DNA from: Oscillatoria sp. HE19RPO
GTDB taxonomy: Bacteria > Cyanobacteriota > Cyanobacteriia > Cyanobacteriales > Laspinemataceae
Assembly (NCBI RefSeq): GCF_024220515.1
Contig: NZ_JAMXOT010000104.1
Coordinates: forward strand, 1-64,000
Length of the DNA: 64,000 nucleotides
Direction of reading: 5' to 3'
In this document: positions 42,787 through 51,132 of the stretch, piece after piece
Position numbering within the stretch: position 1 is the stretch's first letter
How the letters are laid out: every line of letters begins with the position of its first letter
The notes under the pieces: model-generated
Databases searched by the model: none
What the model was told of the DNA's origin: nothing
The model's input: the letters and a program-made list of their open reading frames with translations, nothing else
Made by a program: the position numbers and the translations under genes

Positions 42787-43110
42787 TTAGGGTATTCCAA
42801 CAAATAAATCATCCTTGCTTTGATGCGATCGCACCTAACAAGACTCTATATTAGCCCGCGCAGGCGGGCTATAGCCCAAGGGGCATGGCTTCGCTAACGT
42901 TCGTATAGCCCCACCCTTTAGGGTGCGGGTTTTTTGGATATTTTATTTTTTGGACTTCCCTTAGGGTGTTCCAACAAATAAATCATCCAAATCCCGATGG
43001 TTAAGCACCTAACAAGACTGTGTTAGCCCGCGCAGGCGGGCTTTGTCCGTGTAGCCCCAGGCTTCAGCCTGCGGGTTTTTTGGATATTTTATTTTTTGGA
43101 CTTCCCTTAA
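42787..43110. repeat. Two tandem family B elements
   Basis: Two head-to-tail copies (about 42787-42961 and 42961-43110) share a start of TTAGGGT(A/G)TTCCAACAAATAA, a middle AGCCCGCGCAGGCGGGCT hairpin, and an end of GGGTTTTTTGGATATTTTAT followed by TTTTTGGACTTCCCTTA. The start and end are imperfect inverted repeats, as expected of a MITE. The rest of the gap (43111-43245) shows nothing more than the phyH-type gene promoter region. Confidence 0.75.
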
Positions 43111-44379: not shown

Positions 44380-44600
44380 TCTGTAGGGGCGCTTCTCGAA
44401 GCGCCCTTGGGGCGCAAGCATTTACTCCAACAAGAAATAACGATTTTTCGTCATCAAATTCACCTCTTGTAGGGGCGCTTCGAGAAGCGCCTGTCCAAGA
44501 AATAACAATTTTTCGTCATCAAATTCACCTCTTGTAGGGGCGCTTCGAGAAGCGCCTGTCCAAGAAATAACAATTTTTCGTCATCAAATTCACCACCTTG
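44380..44600 (+). repeat. Family C tandem array, three units
   Basis: Units begin at about 44380 (a variant with a GGGGCGCAAGCATTTACTCC insertion), 44466 and 44531; the last two are exactly 65 bases apart. Each carries the palindrome GGCGCTTCGAGAAGCGCC and ends in TTTTCGTCATCAAATTCACC. A fourth copy is at 10010. It occupies the gap between the PhyH and aminotransferase genes. Confidence 0.85.
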
Positions 44601-44666
44601 ACAGGGCTAGGATTTAAACCCCCGTAGGTTGTTGCTTGTACCCTGATCTAATCCTGTCTTTTAACG

Positions 44667-48257: not shown

Positions 48258-48471
48258 AGGGAACTCCAAAAAATAAAATCTCCAAAACCTTCGTTCGTAG
48301 ATCAACAGAGTAGCCCCGTCAATGTAGGGGCGCAATGCTTGCGCCCCTACATGAACGTTTGGAGGATTTATATTTTGCAATCCCCTTAGCCCGCGCAGGC
48401 GGGCTTCGTCCGTGTAGCCCCAGGCTTCAGCCTGTGGGTTTTTTGGACATTTTATTTTTTGGAGTTCCCTT
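48258..48471. mobile_element. Family B MITE-like element with perfect ends
   Basis: The ends AGGGAACTCCAAAAAATAAA (left, from 48258) are mirrored exactly at 48450-48471. Inside are the hairpin ATGTAGGGGCGCAA / TTGCGCCCCTACAT (~48323-48353) and AGCCCGCGCAGGCGGGCT. A second, partial B start precedes it (~48192-48256). No ORF is credible; the element lies upstream of psbD and ends ~340 bases before its ATG. Confidence 0.78.
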
Positions 48472-48650
48472 AGAGGCGATCGCACTCCGACTCCCGACCC
48501 GTTTTCTGCTCCCTGTGGCCCTCCCCACCCCTCAACCCGAGGCATCGATTTCCTCGAAACCATCCCCCAATCGAGACAAATTTTCGGGCAGTCCCACCCC
48601 CACCGCCACTGCCCTTCACTCAGTTTTCAGAAAATTTTTAGATTAGGGGG

Positions 48651-48811: not shown

Positions 48812-49870
48812 ATGACGATTGCAGTCGGACGCGCACAGGCAGAGCGAGGATGGTTTGACGTCCTCGACGACTGGCTAAAACGCGATCGCTTCGTCTTTAT
48901 CGGTTGGTCTGGCCTATTACTCTTCCCCTGCGCCTACCTCGCAGTGGGAGGCTGGCTGACCGGCACCACCTTCGTCACCTCTTGGTACACCCACGGATTA
49001 GCTTCCTCCTATTTAGAAGGTTGCAACTTCCTCACCGTAGCCGTTTCAACTCCCCCGAACAGTCTGGGACATTCCCTCCTGTTCCTCTGGGGTCCTGAAG
49101 CCCAAGGAGACTTCACCCGGTGGTGTCAACTCGGCGGTCTCTGGACCTTCGTCGCCCTGCATGGGGCCTTTGGTCTGATTGGCTTCTGCCTGCGTCAGTT
49201 GGAAATTGCCCGCCTGCTAGGGATTCGTCCTTACAACGGACTCGCCTTTACCGGACCCATTGCGGTGTTCGTCAGCGTGTTCTTGATGTACCCCTTGGGT
49301 CAATCAGGCTGGTTCTTTGCTCCTAGCTTTGGCGTCGCAGCAATTTTCCGATTCCTACTTTTCTTCCAAGGGTTCCATAACTGGACCCTCAACCCCTTCC
49401 ACATGATGGGAGTGGCCGGTATCCTGGGCGGTGCACTGCTGTGCGCCATTCATGGAGCCACCGTGGAAAACACCTTGTTTGAAGATGGTGAAGGTTCCAA
49501 CACCTTCCGCGCCTTTGAACCCACTCAGGCGGAAGAAACCTACTCGATGGTGACCGCTAACCGTTTCTGGTCCCAAATTTTTGGGGTCGCTTTCTCCAAC
49601 AAGCGCTGGTTACACTTCTTTATGTTGTTCGTACCAGTAACTGGCTTGTGGATGAGCGCGATCGGGGTCGTTGGCTTAGGTTTAAACCTGCGTGCTTATG
49701 ACTTCGTGTCTCAAGAACTGCGGGCTGCGGAAGACCCTGAATTTGAAACCTTCTACACGAAGAATATTCTTCTGAACGAAGGGATTCGGGCTTGGATGGC
49801 TCCGGTTGACCAGCCTCACGAAAACTTCGAGTTCCCTGAAGAAGTTCTACCTCGCGGTAACGCTCTGTAG
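48812..49870 (+). CDS. psbD: Photosystem II D2 protein
   Basis: A 352-residue protein of standard length, opening [20 protein letters not shown] and ending [10 protein letters not shown]. It binds the reaction-centre chlorophyll, pheophytin, QA and non-heme iron; the conserved [23 protein letters not shown] and [10 protein letters not shown] are intact. I chose ATG 48812 because TTTGGAG lies just upstream and it fits all D2 starts. There is no psbC behind it: a strong terminator follows at 49912. In many cyanobacteria one psbD is cotranscribed with psbC and a second copy is monocistronic, so this is probably the monocistronic copy (inference). Confidence 0.97.
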
Positions 49871-49911: not shown

Positions 49912-49943
49912 AAAACCCCTACCGAATGGTAGGGGTTTTGTGT
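49912..49943 (+). terminator. psbD terminator
   Basis: AAAACCCCTACC and GGTAGGGGTTTT form a perfect 12-bp stem with a GAAT loop, followed by GTGTT. It begins 42 bases after the psbD stop. Confidence 0.85.
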
Positions 49944-50139
49944 TAAAAAGCAGGGGTCACTTCCCCTGGACTTCTTCATCCAGGCGTTTCCGCCGAGTTT
50001 GGACGCCCCACACTTGCGGAAAAAAATTAGCCAGATAAAAAACAGCAGGGTTGGGAAATTTTCAATTTCCTGTGTTATGCTAGGTGACATAAAGCTTATA
50101 GAAATAAAACCCGCTTAGGGTAAACAGGAGGTGATGCCT

Positions 50140-50211
50140 ATGCCAGATAGTAGTAAACGCATGGGTCATCAGATTGGAGTAAATCGGCTGTGGGCCGGGG
50201 CTGTTCTCTAA
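50140..50211 (+). CDS. 23-residue ORF with strong ribosome site, doubtful
   Basis: AGGAGGTG (50126-50133) lies just before ATG codons at 50134 and 50140. The ORF is MPDSSKRMGHQIGVNRLWAG plus three residues, and stops at the start of a highly folded RNA region. It may be a leader peptide or a coincidence. No homologue is recognised. Confidence 0.35.
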   Translation: MPDSSKRMGHQIGVNRLWAGAVL

Positions 50212-50377
50212 CAACTCGCTTTAGTCCCTTTGGGATTAAAGAAAATCCTTGAGAACTAGGCTGGTTGGGAGTTCCTCCCGGCAGTCAGATTCCAATCTGA
50301 AGACCAACTAGACCGCTTTCACCCTCAGCGTCATAGTGAAAACTAAGCGCACCCGGTGAGAGCGGATAGTTTTTTTT
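50203..50377 (+). ncRNA. Highly structured RNA of unknown class
   Basis: A succession of stems is visible: GTTCTC (50203) / GAGAAC (50251); TTTAGTCCC / GGGATTAAA (50220-50228, 50232-50240); CTGGTTGG (50261) / CCAACTAG (50304); CAGAT / ATCTG (50286-50298); and an 11-bp stem CCGCTTTCACC (50313) / GGTGAGAGCGG (50355), one wobble, followed by eight T at 50370-50377. GGGAG/CTCCC near 50267 competes with the third stem. This suggests a free or leader RNA with a terminator end. It does not match tmRNA, 6S, RNase P, cobalamin or glutamine riboswitch patterns that I remember. The rest of the gap 49944-50125 shows a weak TTGGGA/TATGCT promoter near 50051-50082. Confidence 0.6.
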
Positions 50378-50504: not shown

Positions 50505-50786
50505 ATGGCTCAGTTGTTAACAGAAACAGAAATTCAGGATCGGTTGATTCAACTTGGGGGATGGACCCGAGAGGGAAAAATCTTGCAGTGTGAAAGAAAA
50601 TTCAAAGATTTTATCGAGGCGATCGCCTTTGTCAATCAATTAGTTGACCCCGCCGAAACCGCCGGACATCACCCAGACCTGGAAATTTCTTATAATAAAG
50701 TCACCATTAGCTTAACGACTCATGATGCTGGGGGCTTAACCGAAAAAGACTTTCAGATGGCCCAGACTATCTCCGAGTTGAAATGA
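50505..50786 (+). CDS. Pterin-4a-carbinolamine dehydratase
   Basis: A 93-residue DCoH/PhhB-family protein: the active site block is AETAGHHPDLEISYNKVTISLTTHDAGGLT, with adjacent His residues and the THD...GLT motif. It dehydrates 4a-hydroxytetrahydrobiopterin; in cyanobacteria it may also assist molybdopterin or other pterin systems. AGGGAG lies ~6 bases before the ATG. No aromatic amino acid hydroxylase is nearby, so the pterin source is unclear. Confidence 0.9.
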   Translation: MAQLLTETEIQDRLIQLGGWTREGKILQCERKFKDFIEAIAFVNQLVDPAETAGHHPDLEISYNKVTISLTTHDAGGLTEKDFQMAQTISELK

Positions 50787-50988
50787 GTTACCCTCCCTGA
50801 CAGAGTGGGTGGAGACGGATTAAATTCTCCTAACAAAATTTTTGTGATAAACTGTGCCAATCAGTAAACTACAGATGTAGCATCAGCGCACTCTGGAGTT
50901 GTTCTAAGTAGGAGGAACGAATTGATGGGACTTTCGACTCCGTAGGGCCTTGCTTTGGGAGCCAAAATAGGTCCATCATTTAGGAGAC

Positions 50989-51132
50989 ATGAATTTGAAA
51001 CAATCAAAAGGAAGGTCTCAACTCAGGGAAAATGTTTCTGGCAAAACCAGGAGCGGTCCCCCCTCCAAAAAGAGGGTCCTTTTTTTGGGAGTTTCCCCAA
51101 GTAACCGGCTGACCTATAACCTCGAACTCTAG
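50989..51132 (+). CDS. Basic 47-residue ORF, doubtful
   Basis: MNLKQSKGRSQLRENVSGKT then RSGPPSKKRVLFLGV; AGGAG lies 4 bases before the ATG. The high Lys/Arg content and a good ribosome site argue for translation. Against it, a terminator-like hairpin lies inside the ORF, and no homologue is recognised. Confidence 0.25.
   Translation: MNLKQSKGRSQLRENVSGKTRSGPPSKKRVLFLGVSPSNRLTYNLEL
51060..51079 (+). terminator. Short hairpin with T-run
   Basis: CCCTC / GAGGG with a CAAAAA loop is followed by TCCTTTTTTT. The stem is only 5-6 bp, so it may be weak. Confidence 0.5.

Follow-up and report, generated by a model that had tools for sequence, protein, structure and literature searches.

A short open reading frame conserved within the main hairpin of a cyanobacterial small RNA that very probably belongs to the Sye_sRNA1 family

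We analyzed a structured RNA on the forward strand of contig NZ_JAMXOT010000104.1 (GCF_024220515.1) of Oscillatoria sp. HE19RPO, which spans positions 50126-50377 of the window, the 64,000-nucleotide (nt) stretch of DNA to which all coordinates refer. The RNA is real and well conserved, and it has very probably been reported before: the locus is very probably this cyanobacterium's copy of the Sye_sRNA1 family. The present analysis adds a description of how the RNA is built and where it occurs, and a conserved mini-open reading frame (ORF) embedded in the main hairpin. In detail, the conserved element is a single long interrupted hairpin, referred to as the rod in the following, which consists of six short helices and conserved internal loops. 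The translation signals of the ORF are conserved and the peptide sequence is much less so, a combination that is unusual, and the RNA is probably not only folded but also translated. We tentatively propose a translated dual-function small RNA (sRNA), a reading to which we would give slightly less than an even chance. The rod, the terminator and especially the embedded mini-ORF turn the function of this RNA into a testable question, and they do so for an abundant published RNA family that lacks an Rfam model.

The region 50126-50377 folds with a calculated energy of -101.6 kcal/mol, compared with -73.4 +/- 4.5 kcal/mol in shuffled sequences (z -6.3; 0 of 200 shuffles as good). This bears out an initial annotation of the stretch, which had postulated a structured RNA here, and the Shine-Dalgarno sequence (SD), the 23-codon ORF, the 11-bp hairpin and the run of eight T all lie where it had placed them. 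As the reverse strand is also well folded (z -5.2), the strand is not set by folding energy alone, and it was assigned by means of the ORF and the terminator. The five stems described in the initial annotation are a feature of the single-genome fold only. Because the distance between the motifs that flank the apical part ranges from 54 to 127 nt in the members compared, this fold is not the conserved structure, and covariation supports the rod instead. Its 5' strand (50164-50208) carries the helix strands P1 (GGTC, 50164-50167), P2 (50170-50176), P3 (50182-50185), P4 (GGCTG, 50186-50190), P5 (CCGGG, 50195-50199) and P6 (CTC, 50206-50208). The stop codon of the ORF and the variable apical part follow (50209-50268), and the 3' strand (50269-50305) provides the partners of P6 (50269-50271), P5 (50277-50281), P4 (50282-50286), P3 (50288-50291), P2 (50293-50299) and P1 (50302-50305).

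In an alignment of 36 sequences 97.1% of the cells of the rod are paired and two-sided changes occur in 15 of the 29 pairs; with the exception of the number of pair types, these values were not matched by any shuffle, and pairing falls to about 50% if the partner is shifted by one base. An alignment of 94 members, which was fitted to the covariance model and therefore leans towards it, gave 95.9% paired cells and two-sided changes in 26 of the 29 pairs (0 of 500 shuffles), so that the covariation in relatives for which the initial annotation had proposed to look is indeed present. The conserved GAG-UUCCU at 50269-50276 comprises the 3' strand of P6 and the CU-rich strand of an internal loop; the latter is largely unpaired (unpaired probability of 0.61 in the fold) and could, judging from its bases, pair with an SD. 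Two local hairpins were considered as well. The hairpin CCGGC-UGUGC-GCCGG within the ORF (50184-50199), an alternative to the rod helices P4 and P5, is fully paired in 34 of the 36 sequences. It was rejected as the main structure, since there are more compensatory changes in the rod and P5 is full in 36 of 36; a two-state switch between this hairpin and P4/P5 is possible. A GGAG/CUCC hairpin on the 3' side is unsupported, as its register shifts between species.

The ribosome-binding signals are located at the 5' end of the element. The SD AGGAGGTGAT (50126-50135) can pair without interruption over ten bases with the 16S tail GGATCACCTCCTTT, a duplex of -18.7 kcal/mol, and it occurs once in the window with 0.11 occurrences expected. 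This is in line with the ideal ribosome site claimed in the initial annotation. The tail sequence was confirmed in four relatives; it was not found in the organism's own assembly, a draft that probably lacks the rRNA. The 23-codon ORF MPDSSKRMGHQIGVNRLWAGAVL starts with the ATG at 50140 and ends at 50211. It had been described as preceding the RNA, but from codon 9 to codon 23 it coincides with the 5' strand of the main hairpin.

For the conservation of SD and ATG we rely on the model-based set, because the pattern-based set of 211 loci requires both elements by definition. GGAGG is present in 94 of 94 covariance-model matches, with the restriction that the model itself covers the SD region, and 92 of these 94 possess an ATG 8-10 nt after this motif followed by an ORF of 17-24 codons with an in-frame stop. 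The two exceptions are L052, which carries a -1 frameshift, and L111, a weak and probably chance match; flags for L020 and L044 in the ORF survey turned out to be artefacts of taking the second ATG. The distance between the ATG and the CTG core is 43, 46 or 49 nt in 205 of 205 cases, which means that the length of the ORF changes in threes. By contrast, on the other side of the rod all lengths between 12 and 17 nt and also 24-25 nt occur. The stop codons interchange (TAA, TAG and TGA in 87, 67 and 1 of 155 distinct ORFs, respectively). Of 161 cases, one of the two other frames is blocked in 131 and the remaining one in all 161.

Considering these features together, we assume the following course of events for a translated dual-function sRNA. 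Ribosomes would bind to the near-perfect SD, initiate very efficiently and read the ORF of 17-24 codons. Translation and rod would be mutually exclusive, because the rod could not form while its 5' strand is being read. Whenever initiation falls or the RNA stays untranslated, the rod would fold and expose its conserved internal loop, whose CU-rich UUCCUYCC strand, along with conserved bases next to it, may act in trans on the ribosome sites of mRNAs or on a protein. A second function of the peptide is conceivable, but its sequence is loosely constrained, and for this reason translation itself rather than the peptide is more likely the selected feature. It could even be that the act of translating the mini-ORF, and not the sequence of the peptide, decides whether the rod forms. 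Such a translation-gated switch would fit because SD, start, stop and frame are strictly conserved with little constraint on the amino acids; we consider it rather doubtful as a specific claim. If it is true, a very abundant cyanobacterial RNA would report initiation capacity, i.e., free ribosomes or the light state, to its regulatory half.

Several observations weigh against a translated dual-function sRNA. Codons 2-8, outside the rod, have a pN/pS of 1.01, and for codons 9-23 within it the ratio is about 0.73; these values do not demonstrate selection for the peptide as such. Furthermore, the ORF is cut to 17 codons in several lineages, it is frameshifted in L052, and the frame-preserving insertions and deletions may represent few independent events, some of them in an AGT repeat. 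The pN/pS near 1 ahead of the rod would also suit a purely regulatory RNA, in which SD and ORF matter as RNA only, either for ribosome docking or as conserved sequence, and the peptide is a by-product. The almost invariant wobble positions of AGT-AGT-AAA, GGTC and CTG point in the same direction, as do the highly variable middle of the peptide and a C-terminus that is dispensable in some lineages. Against it stand the well-spaced ATG and in-frame stop that accompany the SD in nearly all model matches, the interchangeable stop codons, and an ORF that changes in threes opposite a partner strand of free length, and we regard this alternative as unlikely, if deserving of some weight.

The opposite extreme would be a micropeptide mRNA, whose product is the 23-residue peptide and whose rod and terminator merely stabilize or tune the message. 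The very strong SD speaks in favor of it, and across 151 distinct peptides the residues D/E-S-S-K are kept, and R-L mostly, near the same places. On the other hand, the rod covaries more strongly than stability would require, with the coding strand as one of the partners, the overall amino-acid constraint is weak, and no match to the peptide was found in Pfam, NCBIfam or PDB. Hence, a micropeptide mRNA appears rather improbable.

The RNA is a free-standing gene with an intrinsic terminator and presumably its own promoter. The terminator region (50306-50377) contains the arms CCGCTTTCACC (50313-50323) and GGTGAGAGCGG (50355-50365), which form 11 bp, and the run of eight T at 50370-50377. The initial annotation had seen this hairpin as the closing stem of the structure; stem and U-run are present and constitute the terminator, but they form a separate hairpin that does not close the rest. 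Among 85 distinct pairs of terminator arms each of the ten positions tested is paired in 75-85 of the 85, with compensatory changes that include U-A to C-G exchanges. The conserved terminator sequence is absent from 23 loci, several of which carry an unrelated hairpin with a T-run instead, and this substitution is consistent with a terminator role. Members without the conserved ACCGC...GCGGATAG terminator (L099, L102, L106, L108-L110, L116, L117 and L122) belong to Pseudanabaena and some other lineages; they keep the ORF, and several of them have an unrelated terminator. On the 5' side a candidate extended -10 element (TG-T-TATGCT) is located at 50073-50081, which would place the transcription start near 50088. 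A promoter-like extended -10 TGNTANNNT was found no more than 100 nt upstream in 157 of 201 non-redundant members, where it most often ends about 40-70 nt 5' of the SD. Counted from the promoter-like element to the T-run, the predicted length of the RNA is roughly 250-290 nt.

Upstream of the RNA is psbD, the gene of the photosystem II D2 protein (48812-49870, forward strand), with a terminator-like hairpin of its own at 49912-49939, and downstream follows a gene for pterin-4a-carbinolamine dehydratase (50505-50786, forward strand). For the 211 loci, psbD is the upstream gene in 102 cases and cobB in 23, another gene is found in 71, and 15 are too short to tell. The downstream partner is not constant: the pterin dehydratase gene occupies this place in only about half of the loci, a porin, an HD-GYP protein or other genes are encoded there elsewhere, and in two loci the downstream gene is on the opposite strand. 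The check proposed in the initial annotation, whether the same gene follows elsewhere, thus came out negative. Of the options listed there, the sRNA is the correct one.

A second of these options, a leader-peptide attenuator or riboswitch for the downstream gene, here the pterin dehydratase, could draw on the attenuator-like order of leader ORF, hairpin and terminator and on the loci in which that gene comes next. Yet the RNA remains constant while the genes behind it vary, the terminator that lies between them is kept or swapped for an unrelated one, and the published family is reported to occur as an abundant RNA species of its own, ~200 nt in length (Tan et al., 2018; PMC6091082), which makes this explanation very improbable. 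A guide or structural RNA of a mobile element (HEARO/omega-RNA-like), as also considered initially, would resemble the locus as a compact structured RNA beside an ORF, but it is hardly credible given that nearly all members carry a single copy, that inheritance looks vertical, that psbD and cobB are conserved neighbours and that no matches were found in viral contigs or in Rfam.

The RNA is present as one copy in its own genome, and by DNA similarity it was found in 55 of 59 relatives (about 33 families), almost always as a single copy. The covariance model R1, which was built on 36 sequences, detected a single copy each in 122 of the 386 genomes sampled across the phylum, among them nearly all those listed from the organism's own order and members of many further families in the class. 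In the small-genome family f41, which we take to be the marine picocyanobacteria, the RNA was not found except for two weak matches. Weak model matches L111 and L112 (E 1e-5 to 1e-4) were treated as chance. When 84,980 species genomes were scanned with a sequence pattern, the matches listed were all cyanobacterial.

Further features were noted in the window. The intergenic region 50800-51100, 3' of the pterin dehydratase gene, contains several SD-like sites and a terminator-like hairpin (51061-51076); it is conserved inside the genus (76-86%), not beyond it, and might give rise to a second transcript specific to the genus. At 42902-43109 and 48386-48472 there is a dispersed repeat, up to 87 nt long, with a GC-rich palindrome and a 62-nt core present three times. 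Rfam CRISPR-DR28 matches at 43024-43047 and 48387-48410 sit within this repeat; a CRISPR array was rejected, as the matches are lone dispersed repeats. Moreover, a 65-nt unit is repeated three times in tandem at 44431-44625, where the third copy diverges half-way and each copy contains a GGGGCGCTTC-GAAGCGCC palindrome.

The initial annotation had found no match to an RNA class. This holds for Rfam 15, which gave no match in 50126-50377 at the gathering score nor at E<=10, and a text search of the literature with the RNA's own sequence strings yielded no match, but the RNA does correspond to the published Sye_sRNA1 family. Sye_sRNA1 of Synechococcus elongatus UTEX 2973 has ~200 nt and is the most abundant sRNA of its host; 53 homologs were identified via BLAST/GLASSgo, mostly downstream of psbD or cobB, including those of Anabaena 7120, S. 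elongatus 7942, Synechocystis 6803 (TU475, which runs into the cobB gene sll1501) and Synechocystis 6714 (TU2045). In several model cyanobacteria the homologs are the most abundant non-rRNA transcripts and show a transient drop after a shift to high light (all Tan et al., 2018; PMC6091082). We assign our locus to this family because the synteny is reproduced: an S. elongatus-like genome (G089, KaiC 97% identical) carries a single copy directly 3' of psbD, and in two genomes with three KaiC genes each (G048 and G020), which are therefore presumably Synechocystis-like, the RNA lies directly 3' of cobB. Besides synteny, the assignment is based on structure, copy number and distribution and not on direct alignment, which weighs against it. 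Both are free-standing structured RNAs of similar size that are very broadly conserved and mostly located just 3' of psbD or cobB. Sye_sRNA1 was reported as an sRNA with 53 homologs, whereas here the family is described by a covariance model and 211 loci, with a defined rod and terminator and a conserved ORF. No mention of an ORF was found in the passages of Tan et al. (2018) consulted, and the open-access literature consulted yielded no function for Sye_sRNA1. The initial annotation therefore survives the refuting condition that it had named, namely that the RNA belongs to a class whose function is settled.

Other known RNAs are more distant. The 6S RNA (RF00013) shares the long interrupted hairpin, the single copy per genome and a similar size, but it is encoded elsewhere in this genome (C192:203-387), and nearly all relatives likewise have it at a locus of its own. 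PmgR1/Ncr0700 is reportedly an abundant, high-light-repressed cyanobacterial sRNA for photomixotrophic growth and is said to be conserved. It was set aside on genomic position and not on sequence, since it adjoins the transposase gene ssr2227 in Synechocystis 6803 (PMC5386190), whereas the RNA described here adjoins cobB in Synechocystis-like genomes. The dual-function bacterial sRNAs SgrS/SgrT and SR1/SR1P have in common with it an SD-preceded ORF within an sRNA transcript, without homology. In contrast to both, the ORF of the cyanobacterial RNA is at the same time the 5' strand of the main hairpin, and the translated and the folded state would therefore compete.
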